From the NCBI RefSeq assembly GCF_024055715.1, contig NZ_JAMXMV010000020.1, forward strand, positions 1 to 64,000: 64,000 nt of DNA. The letters run 5' to 3'. This DNA comes from Actinoallomurus soli (GTDB lineage: Bacteria; Actinomycetota; Actinomycetes; Streptosporangiales; Streptosporangiaceae). Of this stretch, positions 17,402-24,370 are shown in pieces. Below the pieces are notes generated by a model. The model made no database searches. It saw nothing but the letters and a program-made list of their open reading frames with translations, and was not told the origin of the DNA. The translations under genes and the position numbers were made by a program. The stretch's first letter is position 1; each line of letters opens with the position of its first letter.

Positions 17402-19332
<1,931 letters not shown>

Positions 19333-19336
<4 letters not shown>

Positions 19337-20235
19337 GACCGCTCCGGCAGACGATCGGCCCAGTGGTCCGGCACGACGAACCCGAAGCTCCAGCGGTGAC
19401 GCTCGGTCGGGTTGACGATGCAGTGCCACAACAACCGGTCCGGATCTTGCTCGATCCTGAAGAAGCGCACCATCCGGGGGCGCTCACGCAGGGTGACCAG
19501 TTCGCCGGTGGCGGGGTTCTGGTAGCGGAAGAAGGAGGTGTGCCCCGGGTCGGGGAAGTCCCCGTCGAAGTCGACGATGTACATCCGCCAGCCCGGCTGG
19601 TCCTCGTTGGTGTGCCAGAGCCGGTAGGCGGACGGCGGGTACCACATGCTGCCCGAGAACCGGACCTCGGCGCCGAAGACGTCCTCCAGCGCGGTGATCA
19701 CCCGGGTCTTGGCCGCCAGGTAGGCGTCGTACCCGTCGTGAGCGACGTGCTCGTCCAGGTTGACCAGGTGGAAGTCGCGCCTGACGTCCCCCGGCGGCTC
19801 GGCGGCGGCCCGGTCACGCCACGCTTCGTACTCGGGGCCGGACGGCGCCAGCGAGGTCGAGCGCAGATCCTCTTCCCGGAACGCGTCGTGGAAACGGGCC
19901 AGGTCGACCGTGGGCGGCCGGATCTTCAGCCGCGGGAGCTCATCGATGATCGCTGCGAACCCGGGAAGCTCGTTCAGGTCGTACTCGTAGTGGTAGACCC
20001 CGCTCGCCGACGGCTTCGGACGCTCCACGATCTGGGGGGCGTCCGCGGTCTGCGGCGTGTCCGTAGGGCCGGCCGTGGAAGACGCCACCATGAGATCGCG
20101 GACGGTGAAGTCGTAGCCGCCGGCACGGGCGAACCGGATCACCTCGGCGACCCCGGTCAGGGCCTTCATCCGCTGCCGGACGTGCGGGTCCTCCGCTGCC
20201 AGGCGCAGAAACCGGGCGCAGGAATCAATGGACAT
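19333..20235 (-). CDS. Nif11-domain / 2OG-Fe(II) oxygenase-like fusion protein
   Basis: A 300-residue protein with two parts. Residues 1-52 fit the Nif11 domain, otherwise known mainly as a RiPP leader peptide: CARFLRLAAEDPHVRQRMK, then AGGYDFTVRDL. An acidic/Pro linker follows. The C-terminal domain (about 180-295) has SMWYPPSAYRLWHTNED, then TSFFRYQNPATGE, LLWHC and RHRWSFGFVV, a layout like 2OG-Fe(II) oxygenases of the prolyl-hydroxylase-like type. The proximal motif is HTN rather than HxD, so metal binding may be altered. It lies 4 bp after lanM and its stop overlaps the transporter start. I infer a tailoring enzyme for the lanthipeptide with a built-in leader-like module. The oxygenase call is moderate and the Nif11 call stronger. 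Confidence 0.65.
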
Positions 20236-20239
20236 CGGT

Positions 20240-23200
20240 TCACTCCTTCGATGAGCGACGGGGGCCCGGAGGGTCGAGGAGGAGGACCGACGGGGTGCTC
20301 TCCGGCCGGGCCAGACGCAGGAAGTGCATGCCGAAACCCGCCAGGCCCAGCATCAGGCCGGGGAAGAACCCCGACTCCGGCCCCGGCCGCGCGTCCTCCA
20401 GGTTCCGCCACTGGGCCTGGGCCTGGATGTTGGCCTCCATCCGGAAGGCGGGCTCTTGACCCAGCTCGGCGAAGCGCAGGAACAGCTCGGCGTTGCCCGA
20501 GCGACCGTGGCAGAGCGAGTCGTTCATCAGGCGCGGAAAGCCGCGCATCGTGGCCGTGAGCGCTTGGCGCGCCTCCCGGAACATGGCGTCGTCGTCCTTG
20601 CCGAGCAGAGCCCAGCCACTGATCCGGGTCATGCCGATCCCGGCGGCGCCGTTGCACCACGCGTTGGCGTAGTGGCGCCCGTTGCGGAACCGGCCGCCCG
20701 CGACACGCCTCAGGTCGTACCAATCCTGTTCGTCCTCGTCGAAGTGGCGGGCCTCATAGGCGAAGGCGCGCCGGCCGGCGTCGACATAGTCGGGACGGTC
20801 GTCGCGGCACCCCAGCATGATCAGCGCCCAGCCGATGCCGCCGGCCCCGTGCGAGAGGCCGGTCAGGTTGGCCGTCACGGTATGCGGGTCCGGGCTCGGC
20901 CACGAGAGGGTGTCGCCGTCGGCCTGCGAATGGCGCATCAGATGCGCGGCGCATCGGTGCGCGTGCTCCAGGCCGTGGCCACCGGTGGCGTCCGCCAGCC
21001 CGAGGAACACGGGGATGAGCCCGGCCACGCCGTGGAAGACATCGAGGCGGCGGTCCAGCTCGATCAGGCCGGCGGCCTCGTCGGCGAGGTCGACGGCACG
21101 ATCGAGCAACGCGCGATCACCCCACAGGTGGTGCAGGTGAGTGAGGAGATAGATCAGCCCGCCGAGCCCGGCGAAGGCCCCGATGCGGTGGCGGTCGCAG
21201 GAGTCGAGGGCGTGGGCGAGCGCGCGTTCGGCGGCCCGGCGGAACTCCGGCCGCGGGGCCGCCTCGTGGAGGTGCGCGAGGAACAACGCGACACCCGCGG
21301 AACCGATGTACAGGTCGCCCTCGATGTCGATCTCGGTCTTGCCATCGCCGGTGATGACGTACGACGTCCACGGCGCACGGTCCGGCTCGCGCAGCATCCG
21401 GCATAGCCGCAGCCCGACGGCGCTCGCCTGCTCGACGCAGGTGGCCGCGAAGTCCGGGCTCGTGACGTCGCCGCCGGACAAACCCGCGGCGATGTACTGG
21501 TCCTGCTGTGCGCGGTTCCGAGCGGAGAGCCGCCGGATCCGCGCGGCGGCGTGGTCCAGCGGCGTCGCATCGACCGTGGCCGCGACCTCGTCGCGATGGT
21601 CGTGGACGAGCCTGTCCCCGCCCGCCTCGACGGTGAACATGGGGACGTCCAGCCGCCACATCGACGTCAGCTCGCAGGGCGGGAGCACGCCTTCGGCGTC
21701 CCAACTGCGCGGGAACCTGCGCACCGTGTCGATGAGCAGGTCGACCTCCAACGGCTCGATCATGCACTTGGGGTGGCGCGCGGCCAGCAGCAGTTGGGCG
21801 TAGACCTGAGTGCTCCAGTTGATGAAGCGCACGCGGGTGTGAGCGAAAAGGGCGGTCACGTACTCGATCGCGGGCTCCGGCCGCTGCTGGAACCACCGGT
21901 AGACGCGGTCGAACCCGGTCCTGATCGCGTCGGTGAAGTCCTCGGCGCGGGTGAGCTCGTCGCCGACGAAGACGCGGTTGGGCGCTCCCGGCTCGACCAG
22001 CACGCCCGTACGGTGCGTCACGGCCGCTTCGAAGGACATCCGGTGGTCGCTGACCCGGGGCACCGGCGTCGGCAGGCGATAGGCGTCGCCGCCGGAGTAG
22101 CCGCTGAGCCGGATGCCGGTGTCGGCCGTGGACGCCGCCGTGGGCCACTCGATCAGGCCGGTCTTGAACACCGAGTCCATGAGCGTGCCGGACGGCCGAG
22201 GCTGCCCCTTGGGCGGCGCGCCGAGCACGGTCTCGCAGTCGCAGATGAACGCGTGGCCGTCGGCGACCAGGACGTTCTCGAAGTGCAGGTCGCCCCCGCC
22301 GAGGATGTAGAAGATCGCGAGGTAGCCACCGAGTTCGGCGTACACGTGCCCGGCCTGATCGCGCGTCTCGACCCGGTTGCGTCCTGACGGGATCAGCGCC
22401 TCGTAGCCGTATCCGTCCCTGGGCAGCACCGGCCGCGGGGCATAGCCGACGACGTCATCGTCGCGTAGCCGGGCCAGGAGCTCCTGCAGCGCGGCCTCGC
22501 CGCGGACACAGCGTGGCTTGTAGACGAACGACTCCTCGCGGCCGTCCGCCAGCGTGACGTCCACGATCGCCACACTGCGGGCGCCGGCGTGCATGTCGGA
22601 ACGGCCCAGGCGCAAGGAGCGCACTCTGGTGATCGGCGCTTCGAAGAACGCCTCGGCCACCGCACCGGCGTCGGCGCGCAGCCGGGCGATCATCTCGCGG
22701 CCGTGGCCGGCGAGCAGCTCGGTGACGTGGGCCAGCCACCGTCCCAGGACCGGGAAGTCCAGGTAGAAGCGATGGTAGGACGCCGCGTCCGAGAACGTCT
22801 CGTCGAGATAGGCCAGGTAATCCTTACTGGTCGTCCGCGCCGGGTCGATGCCGTGCAGCGCGCAGTGCGCCTTGGCGGCGGCCTCCACCGCCCACGCCAG
22901 CGCCAGCTCGAAGCGGCCGAGCAGGTGGTCCTGGAAGTCGTCGACCACCTGGACGTCGATGGCGGGGACCCCCCGACCGTCTTCTTCCGCGAGCGCGTCG
23001 CTCAGCCGTAGGCCCAGTTCGGTCAGGAACGGCTTGCAGGCGATGGCGAGTCGGCCGTAGTAGACATCGAACTCGCGCCAGCCCGCCTTCATCCGGTCAT
23101 CGGCCCGGCTCAGTCCCCGCAGCGCGCTCTGGTACGTCGGCAGCCATTCACCGTGCAGGTCCGTGAGGATCCGTCCGAGGGCGTCGTCGGGACCGGTCAG

Positions 23201-23455
23201 CGTCAGTTCGTGTCGGCGGTACTCGGTCAGGATTTCGGTCACCCGATGCCGTGAATATCGCGCCGATCCCGGCCGTCGCCTGCTCTCTTCGTGGGAATGC
23301 TCGGCCAGCCTGACCGCCAGCCGGCCGATTCTCCACCGGTCGAACTCCGTCAGCGCGACTGTGTCGTCGGCCGGTCCCAGGGTGGAGACGACCTGCGCCT
23401 GCTCGGAGAGGTTCGCGGCGCGGGCCGCGATGTCCAAGGGGAAGAGTGGGGTCAC
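20240..23455 (-). CDS. lanM: Class II lanthipeptide synthetase (LanM)
   Basis: A 1071-residue bifunctional enzyme that dehydrates Ser/Thr of the precursor and cyclises Cys onto the products. The N-terminal dehydratase (DUF4135, about 150-560) shows the SLRLGRSDMHAGAR strand, FVYKPR, GGGDLHFENV and ICDCETVL, matching the kinase-like active-site segments of the family. The C-terminal LanC-like cyclase (about 700-1050) has GLSHGAGGIG and the zinc ligands C934 (WCNG), C982 and H983 (LCHG). Length is typical. The ATG is 90 bp downstream of the precursor stop, and the Nif11 fusion follows 4 bp after its own stop. It is expected to act on the 79-aa peptide encoded just upstream. Confidence 0.96.
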   Translation of the reverse strand: MTPLFPLDIAARAANLSEQAQVVSTLGPADDTVALTEFDRWRIGRLAVRLAEHSHEESRRRPGSARYSRHRVTEILTEYRRHELTLTGPDDALGRILTDLHGEWLPTYQSALRGLSRADDRMKAGWREFDVYYGRLAIACKPFLTELGLRLSDALAEEDGRGVPAIDVQVVDDFQDHLLGRFELALAWAVEAAAKAHCALHGIDPARTTSKDYLAYLDETFSDAASYHRFYLDFPVLGRWLAHVTELLAGHGREMIARLRADAGAVAEAFFEAPITRVRSLRLGRSDMHAGARSVAIVDVTLADGREESFVYKPRCVRGEAALQELLARLRDDDVVGYAPRPVLPRDGYGYEALIPSGRNRVETRDQAGHVYAELGGYLAIFYILGGGDLHFENVLVADGHAFICDCETVLGAPPKGQPRPSGTLMDSVFKTGLIEWPTAASTADTGIRLSGYSGGDAYRLPTPVPRVSDHRMSFEAAVTHRTGVLVEPGAPNRVFVGDELTRAEDFTDAIRTGFDRVYRWFQQRPEPAIEYVTALFAHTRVRFINWSTQVYAQLLLAARHPKCMIEPLEVDLLIDTVRRFPRSWDAEGVLPPCELTSMWRLDVPMFTVEAGGDRLVHDHRDEVAATVDATPLDHAAARIRRLSARNRAQQDQYIAAGLSGGDVTSPDFAATCVEQASAVGLRLCRMLREPDRAPWTSYVITGDGKTEIDIEGDLYIGSAGVALFLAHLHEAAPRPEFRRAAERALAHALDSCDRHRIGAFAGLGGLIYLLTHLHHLWGDRALLDRAVDLADEAAGLIELDRRLDVFHGVAGLIPVFLGLADATGGHGLEHAHRCAAHLMRHSQADGDTLSWPSPDPHTVTANLTGLSHGAGGIGWALIMLGCRDDRPDYVDAGRRAFAYEARHFDEDEQDWYDLRRVAGGRFRNGRHYANAWCNGAAGIGMTRISGWALLGKDDDAMFREARQALTATMRGFPRLMNDSLCHGRSGNAELFLRFAELGQEPAFRMEANIQAQAQWRNLEDARPGPESGFFPGLMLGLAGFGMHFLRLARPESTPSVLLLDPPGPRRSSKE

Positions 23456-23545
23456 GCCAGGGTTCCTTGCTCCGTCGGTCCGCGCGGGCCGGTGGGCCGG
23501 TGGGCCGACGAGGGTCGGCCCACCGGTTGCTCTTCGCTTCCGGGG

Positions 23546-23785
23546 TTACTTGGTCGTGCCGTCGCAGAGGATGGTCAGCGGACCCGCGCTGCAGGTGGAG
23601 GCGCAGGCGTACACCTCGGTGGCGGCCAGGCCCTCGGTCCAGAAGCCGAGCGACTCCTCGTCGAGCGGCTCGACGGAGGCCGGAACGGTGCCGGCGGACA
23701 CGCCGAACGCCTCGGGGGCCGCCAGTATCTCGGCGCGGACCTCCGCGTCCGCGGCCGCGTGACGCAGAACGCTGCTCGGTGACAT
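23546..23785 (-). CDS. lanA: Lanthipeptide precursor with NHLP-like leader
   Basis: A 79-residue precursor. AAGGAG lies 7-8 nt before the ATG, so the longer open frame upstream is not used. The leader, about residues 1-60, carries VLRHAAADAEVRAEILAAPEA followed by FGVSAGTVP, resembling the nitrile-hydratase-like leader family (xxAxxDxxFRxxLLxDPxxA...G...VP). The Cys/Ser/Thr-rich tail CASTCSAGPLTILCDGTTK begins after TEVYA. It has Cys61, Cys65 and Cys74 and Ser/Thr at 63, 64, 66, 71, 77 and 78, allowing up to three thioether rings. PLTILCDG is reminiscent of the LTIEC ring of actagardine-type lantibiotics, but the match is short. No double-glycine site is present. Cleavage after Ala60 is my guess. 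It is followed by lanM. Confidence 0.88.
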   Translation of the reverse strand: MSPSSVLRHAAADAEVRAEILAAPEAFGVSAGTVPASVEPLDEESLGFWTEGLAATEVYACASTCSAGPLTILCDGTTK

Positions 23786-23820: not shown

Positions 23821-24204
23821 CTACTCGGCCAGCTCCGTCGCCAGCCTTATGCCGAGTTGTCGCTCGACATCCTTGATTTCCGTTACCGCGGCATCCATCT
23901 TTGGTTTGTCGTTCTGCCAGGCGATCAACTCCTCTTCCGCAGCGGATATCCCGTCCCGGATAAAGAATGATTCGAGCCATTCCTTGGTGGCCTGGGGATG
24001 CAGATCCGTTACCGGCGTGACGCGCGCCAGCAGTGGCTCCTCGGGAAGTGCGAGTGCGAGTCGGAGCATTTCCTGCAGGCTGCCGTCGGGGGGAAGCAGC
24101 GCGCACAGCAGCATCAGGTGCTGGATCTGACGGACCGTCTCGATCGCTCGGTGCTTGGTCAGGTCACTCGGCGGCTTCGGTCCGGTGCCCTTGAGTGCTC
24201 CCAT
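23821..24204 (-). CDS. 127-aa protein of unknown function, first gene of the lanthipeptide operon
   Basis: A 127-residue, mostly helical soluble protein without Cys-rich, membrane or signal features. It begins MGALKGTGPKPPSDLTKHRA, continues with a hydrophobic helix (IQHLMLLCALLPP), and has an acidic C-terminal half ending RLATELAE. GAAGGG precedes the ATG at 24204 at good spacing. An earlier in-frame ATG at 24258 has none. It ends 35 bp before the precursor ATG, so the two are probably co-transcribed. I do not recognise a family. The position suggests a pathway-specific accessory, immunity or regulatory protein. Confidence 0.7.
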   Translation of the reverse strand: MGALKGTGPKPPSDLTKHRAIETVRQIQHLMLLCALLPPDGSLQEMLRLALALPEEPLLARVTPVTDLHPQATKEWLESFFIRDGISAAEEELIAWQNDKPKMDAAVTEIKDVERQLGIRLATELAE

Positions 24205-24370
24205 GCGGCGTACCCTTCTCGGACGGTCCCTGATCACTCTATGGAGTGGTATGGTCACGGAGAGTTAATTAAGGTGAATGTTATTGGCACTCCAAAGCGA
24301 AGTCAAGGCCCTGCGAGATGTCCCGTAAGGGCGAAGCGAGCGTTTTGGGGTTTTCATGGTGGAGGGTGGA
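24205..24370. promoter_or_regulatory. AT-rich divergent promoter of the lanthipeptide operon and P450
   Basis: This 166-bp gap is far more AT-rich than its surroundings (GTTAATTAAGGTGAATGTTATT at about 24263-24283). It contains the inverted repeat CACTC-TATG-GAGTG at 24235-24248, a second GGTCAC at 24253-24258 related to GATCAC at 24232-24237, and TTGG/CCAA arms at 24284-24295. It must drive both the minus-strand operon and the plus-strand P450. The dyad is a candidate operator. Confidence 0.55.

Follow-up and report, generated by a model that had tools for sequence, protein, structure and literature searches.

A CinX-type enzyme with an N-terminal Nif11 module in a cinnamycin-like lanthipeptide operon of Actinoallomurus soli

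The DNA analyzed here (the window) is a stretch of 64,000 nucleotides of Actinoallomurus soli, positions 1 to 64,000 of contig NZ_JAMXMV010000020.1, and the gene under study, X, is an open reading frame (ORF) of 300 amino acids on its minus strand, with the ATG at 20235 and the stop codon at 19335–19333. Very probably, this ORF is the X gene of an operon for a lanthipeptide of the cinnamycin/duramycin family, and its product would be an Fe(II)/2-oxoglutarate (2OG) hydroxylase adding a beta-hydroxyl group to Asp15 of the precursor. X belongs to this family by sequence and gene order; the hydroxylation of Asp15 by the window enzyme is inferred by analogy to CinX and DurX, for which this activity has been published. 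The protein starts with a Nif11 domain, a module also found at the N-terminus of precursors of ribosomally synthesized and post-translationally modified peptides (RiPPs). The gene and its parts are as follows:

19333–20235, minus strand: X, predicted beta-hydroxylase of Asp15 of the CinX type, with Nif11 at the N-terminus; 52% identical across 322 columns to the X adjoining a cinnamycin core
20080–20235, minus strand: Nif11 module, residues 1–52 (Pfam match 1–48), from the Pfam profile and the AlphaFold2 model
19999–20079, minus strand: Ala/Pro-rich linker, 22–86 residues long across 25 X; low-confidence at residues 56–77 of the model
19333–19998, minus strand: 2OG-oxygenase-type catalytic domain with H208-T-N210, H271, and R281-W-S283, putative ligands by their position in the fold

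X and the cinnamycin-type operon around it

The closest link to a known enzyme came from locus L065, whose core peptide, CRQSCSFGPFTFVCDGNTK, we take to be that of cinnamycin. Window X and L065 X aligned along their full length with 52% identity over 322 columns (E 2e-115), and both carry Nif11 and the HTN...H...RxS residues. The A, N, and X products of L065 are 78, 119, and 325 amino acids in size, the lengths given for CinA, CinN, and CinX in Table 1 of PMC6974636, and L065 X is probably CinX itself. Deletion of cinX has been reported to result in deoxycinnamycin (PMC5408092). The Asp15 hydroxylases of cinnamycin, duramycin, and kyamicin (CinX, DurX, and KyaX) share with window X the place behind LanM and the cognate C-D-G core, and their published lengths of 302–327 amino acids (PMC6974636) compare with 300 for window X; for DurX and KyaX the likeness is one of description. 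By description as well, window X resembles DivX of divamide A, which is presented as the beta-Asp hydroxylase for a lanthipeptide of cinnamycin type that also has a DurN homologue (PMC9505594); DivX originates from an uncultured tunicate symbiont. RumX of rubromidin from Actinomadura sp. RB29, likened to window X by description only, shares its Nif11 label, being called a homolog Nif11 family protein and possible Asp15 hydroxylase (PMC6165096). The novelty assumed in a first-pass annotation of this DNA is not supported: window X falls under the established CinX/DurX/KyaX type, and the Nif11 label had already appeared in print for RumX. The word 'Nif11' was absent from the texts of PMC5408092, PMC6974636, PMC12837462, and PMC10373908, which name CinX, DurX, or KyaX, the primary CinX and DurX papers being outside this scope. 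The Nif11 score of L065 X, 23.9 bits, is barely over the cut-off, which may explain why the domain is so rarely mentioned.

The remaining genes of the operon share the strand of X, and together they follow the order N-A-M-X-TH that is also found in the relatives:

23821–24258, minus strand: CinN/DurN-type lysinoalanine synthase gene, first in the operon, ORF start unsettled; phmmer match of residues 26–143 to the DurN structures 6c0g/6c0h/6c0y (E 8.2e-37)
23549–23785, minus strand: precursor of 79 amino acids, CinA type; NF033431 cinnamycin_RiPP, 102.2 bits (cut-off 35); stop codon 23548–23546
23606–23785, minus strand: leader of 60 residues ending in VYA, an AxA-type cleavage site, assigned by the cleavage motif
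23549–23605, minus strand: core CASTCSAGPLTILCDGTTK, in register with cinnamycin at Asp15-Gly16, Lys19, Ser6, Thr4/11/18, and the three Cys
23497–23526, minus strand: perfect 13-bp hairpin between precursor and LanM, in the position of the published cinA-cinM transcriptional attenuator
20240–23455, minus strand: LanM of 1071 amino acids, GTG start; TIGR03897 (472.7 bits), DUF4135, LANC_like
17402–19336, minus strand: ATP-binding cassette (ABC) transporter, ATPase and membrane parts joined in a single ORF (CinT+CinH type); ABC_tran, ABC2_membrane

The cinnamycin-type precursor with Asp15-Gly16, Ser6, and Lys19, the class II LanM and TH transporter in the order N-A-M-X-TH, and the DurN-type lysinoalanine synthase together place the operon in the cinnamycin family. 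The arrangement is that of cinorf7-A-M-X-T-H, and X is therefore a CinX-type hydroxylase gene; the two differ in that CinT and CinH are separate in cin and joined in one ORF here. X starts 4 bases past the stop of LanM, and the inferred ATG of the transporter overlaps the stop of X as ATGA. The precursor also matched the DurB-like profile PF19398 with 100.5 bits (cut-off 26.6), and its core differs from cinnamycin at residues 2–4, 7, 10, 12, 13, and 17. For the end of the leader, comparable AFA/AYA motifs have been reported for CinA, RumA (PMC6165096), and coerumycin. The hairpin folded with a z of −2.26, 6 of 200 shuffles folding equally well, and a consensus scan found no terminator-like site at it; the cin attenuator is likewise placed between cinA and cinM (PMC5408092). 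A cytochrome P450 gene (24356–25693, plus strand) is divergent from the operon.

Distribution of X and precursors without it

In contigs of the Genome Taxonomy Database (GTDB), 24 relatives were found, and a LanM match lay directly upstream in 24/24, with an N match in 22/24 and a TH match in 24/24 (at L018 spanning 40 residues only). A precursor was seen at 22 of the 24 loci; a strict motif recovered 21 of these, and a relaxed motif the one at L014. The two exceptions, L013 and L018, had neither an N nor a precursor match, and their contigs end before that place. Nif11 was present in all 30 X scanned, namely in 25/25 of those aligned (E up to 1) and above the cut-off in 5/5 further ones. The catalytic domain was matched in 27 of the 297 genomes of the family, including one short partial match (L051, E 8.7e-4), and in 3/392 genomes of the genus of G319, which we take to be Streptomyces.

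The Nif11–oxygenase fusion is thus regularly found at other LanM loci, where the first-pass annotation had proposed to look for it. The annotation had also named a common occurrence outside RiPP loci as a point against its reading; an occurrence of this kind was seen once only, as a stand-alone X with Nif11 and HTS in place of HTN (L067:7703–8641), on a contig with no LanM, N, or TH match. A SARP-like (Streptomyces antibiotic regulatory protein) ORF was noticed by eye upstream of it.

The precursors of the family served as a natural control: with PF19398, 33 precursor matches were obtained, spread over 31 of the 297 genomes. X lay within 8 kb of 24 of these matches, and all 24 cores were of the type C-D-G-x-x-K. 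Four clusters with a cinnamycin-type leader, LanM, and TH had cores without Asp15-Gly16 or Lys19 (e.g., CPSTHHCNHTYACHPTY), although in three of them Lys occurs elsewhere in the core, and lacked both X and N at E 1e-3 within the 11–12.5 kb read. Their LanM is 57–58% identical to that of the window. One of these clusters, with the core CPSTHHCNHTYACHPTY, LanM, and a transporter, is located in the window's own genome (L078:5251–10723, contig C11 at about 1,001,250–1,006,720), and three similar ones are found in other genomes (L110–L112).

Several observations weigh against X being the hydroxylase of a cinnamycin-type operon with an inherited Nif11 module. The four clusters without Asp15 resemble one another and could belong to one lineage. 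Five DurB-like matches had a C-D-G core and no X match within the 11–12.5 kb read. These were L109 and L113–L116. L109 is an orphan second precursor (core CISTCSYGPTTIICDGATK): M, N, X, and TH all went unmatched over the 11 kb read, and the same genome has a full cluster elsewhere. L113–L116 matched weakly and at the profile end only, with two of them under the cut-off, and lack a cinnamycin leader. L113–L116 are short peptides with cores of the C-x3-C-x-S-G-x-T-I-x-C-D-G type, apparently two in one peptide in L113, and perhaps constitute a different lanthipeptide family. A broken copy of X (L068) has its match split between frames and HTD in place of HTN; by motif search, it showed no start of a Nif11 module. 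Around the window operon, no cin-type immunity or regulator gene was found among the ten neighbouring ORFs within 9440–30687, which matched no methyltransferase, two-component, or SARP family, whereas cin has the phosphatidylethanolamine-methyltransferase CinL/Cinorf10 and regulators. PF04191 had no match in the window's own genome, CinL not being established as a member of PF04191.

The catalytic domain and its HTN motif

No Pfam family matched the C-terminal part of window X. Modeled alone, the catalytic part reached a mean predicted local distance difference test (pLDDT) of 91.3 and a predicted template modeling score (pTM) of 0.88. The best solved matches in Foldseek were prolyl hydroxylases for both the full model (E 8.4e-7) and the catalytic part (E 1.1e-7), in agreement with the oxygenase-like domain of the first-pass annotation. 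Among the 50 matches listed for the catalytic part, all were prolyl 4-hydroxylases (P4H) or PHD2, and for the full model 1 of 50 was uncharacterised. Prolyl 4-hydroxylases such as P. putida P4H and PHD2 share with window X the fold class and the order of the active-site residues. As a further counterpoint, the TM-scores to solved folds are low, 0.25–0.44 among the 50 matches listed per search, and the identity to the prolyl 4-hydroxylases is 9–19% among the matches listed. The model thus makes the double-stranded beta-helix fold class clear, though not a close kinship to solved folds.

Prolyl 4-hydroxylases carry HxD. In window X, residues 208–210 read HTN, as the first-pass annotation had observed, so that Asn210 stands at the usual Asp/Glu position of the typical, though not universal, HxD/E...H facial triad. 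HTN was kept in 25/25 aligned X, and the distal His, H271, and R281-x-S283, all at the expected positions of the fold, were likewise invariant. H208, H271, and R281-x-S283 would thus form the site for the metal and 2OG, with Asn210 replacing the usual carboxylate. Members of the Fe/2OG superfamily without the carboxylate ligand exist, such as AspH and halogenases. That window X works like an Fe/2OG oxygenase is a claim that draws on the CinX literature.

The HTN had been thought to raise the chance of unusual chemistry. Halogenation, desaturation, or a loss of activity would be the candidates, and the carboxylate ligand is indeed missing in all 25 aligned X, as it is in halogenases. However, HTN is the rule in this family, the X next to the cinnamycin core included, so by itself it gives no hint of unusual chemistry. 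HxN is also present in five phage-derived relatives, and the single HTS copy, L067, lies on a contig where LanM, N, and TH were not matched. We therefore regard unusual chemistry as highly improbable.

The five phage-derived relatives carry HSN (L061) or HTN (L072, L073, L075, and L076), although three of the five were retrieved only by a pattern that also admits D. Their identity to the window catalytic domain is 21–26%, and for L073 and L075 the motif is the main sign of kinship. As judged from these sequences, HxN is likely to characterize a broader clade. This wider HxN family was reached through a phage record from a tblastn search (E 9e-5); the tight catalytic alignment gave no match to viral contigs, plasmids gave no match at E 0.01, and PHROGs gave a single weak match (E 0.05). 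Of 396 genomes of the phylum, a single one, that of the window itself, was matched by a broad catalytic alignment, which makes the domain rare in this sample.

The Nif11 module and its possible role

The Pfam profile Nif11 (PF07862) matched residues 1–48 of window X over the whole profile with 44.2 bits (E 2.3e-11, cut-off 23.8), and the N-terminal Nif11 domain proposed by the first-pass annotation was thereby confirmed. The NCBIfam profile leader_Nif11 (TIGR03798) scored 32.0 bits, marginally below its cut-off of 32.3. Window X thus shares its Pfam N-terminal domain with Nif11-leader RiPP precursors such as the prochlorosins; in those, however, the domain is the leader of the substrate, whereas in window X it is followed by a linker and an enzyme rather than by a core peptide. 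In the survey of the 396 phylum genomes, Nif11 was found in at least 5, including the window's own, and above the cut-off in at least 4, these counts being lower bounds since a loose first look restricts what gets scored. Chance is ruled out as the source of the match because Nif11 is so rare in this sample. In three of the four other genomes, whose loci were read, the Nif11 ORFs resemble RiPP precursors. The X family has inherited the module as its N-terminal part, with a variable linker behind it; the module is standard and little noticed there, and no one-off fusion.

An AlphaFold2 model of window X, built from 25 relatives, had a pLDDT of 87.8 and a pTM of 0.85. It shows N-terminal helices at residues 3–15, 17–23, 29–38, and 45–54, a low-confidence linker at 56–77, and a beta-rich C-terminal domain. 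To account for a pTM of 0.85 for the full model against 0.88 for the catalytic part, the 79 non-catalytic residues, 22 of them in the disordered stretch, need a mean contribution of about 0.65–0.77. This suggests that Nif11 is confidently placed in the model and lies against the catalytic domain. The argument goes by the two pTM values and is indirect, which also counts against the assignment. The Nif11 module would in this case be an accessory wall or a substrate-holding element packed on its own catalytic domain, and no dock for LanM. We rank this role first, as a guess with about even chances, followed by leader binding and then by LanM docking. A combined account, in which a leader-type fold was recruited as a fixed, substrate-holding part of the enzyme and the catalytic domain belongs to a separate, phage-shared HxN...H...RxS clade with Asn for the carboxylate, is tentative and has somewhat less than even chances.

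The first-pass annotation had proposed that Nif11 imitates a leader and so docks X onto LanM, giving a processing complex. The setting was described correctly: X lies in a LanM operon whose precursor has a different leader, as the window leader is DurB-like and 0/23 precursor leaders matched Nif11 (E up to 10, HMMER filters on). X follows LanM directly, with a gap of 2–52 bases or an overlap of 20 in 23 of the 24 loci (an implausible value at L018 was left out), and the low-confidence linker would agree with docking. Locally, Nif11 helices 1–2 and the leader also share a short match, LR.AA.D..VR, which is stronger than expected by chance: its mean score of 23.1 was reached by 0/300 independent shuffles of the leader, or by 27/1000 joint column shuffles, which respect relatedness. 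However, profile comparison of the Nif11 modules with the leaders by hhalign gave a probability of 1.7%, and cognate pairs showed no clear gain over non-cognate ones (23.1 vs. 21.8, p 0.057). When four unrelated Nif11 stretches were compared with the same leaders, two scored higher (26.2 and 23.5) and one equally, although they stood out less against their own shuffles (34, 44, 164, and 195 of 300). The leader-mimicry signal in these sequences thus appears weak, not nil. The packing suggested by pTM and the four clusters with the same leader type and LanM, yet without X, argue against docking as well. Five frames of 816–1433 amino acids with an X match looked like LanM-X gene fusions but were rejected, as to the eye the parts inspected were GC-rich read-through in a frame other than that of LanM. 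The mimicry claim was therefore not borne out, and LanM docking is considered unlikely.

Alternatively, Nif11 could bind the precursor leader in trans, in the manner of a RiPP recognition element (RRE), and feed the core to the hydroxylase. CinX-type enzymes act on the leader-bearing precursor, and Nif11 and the leader are both conserved, with mean column identities of 64% and 69%. The leaders of the X-less clusters keep the same elements, as judged by eye, so no stretch of the leader tracks X. Furthermore, DurX has been reported in a review to need the Gly beside the core Asp. Leader binding is thus a doubtful alternative to the accessory or substrate-holding role, with somewhat better prospects than docking.

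The predicted product of the operon is a cinnamycin-like peptide with the core CASTCSAGPLTILCDGTTK, which by analogy with its family would carry three thioether rings, a lysinoalanine, and hydroxy-Asp15, and would fall into the phosphatidylethanolamine-binding class. For the family, the little-noticed fact is that a studied enzyme type, the CinX-type hydroxylases, carries Nif11 and an HxN metal motif. Since these enzymes carry Nif11 and an E. coli expression system exists for duramycin (PMC6974636), they allow tests of what a leader-type domain does within an enzyme.
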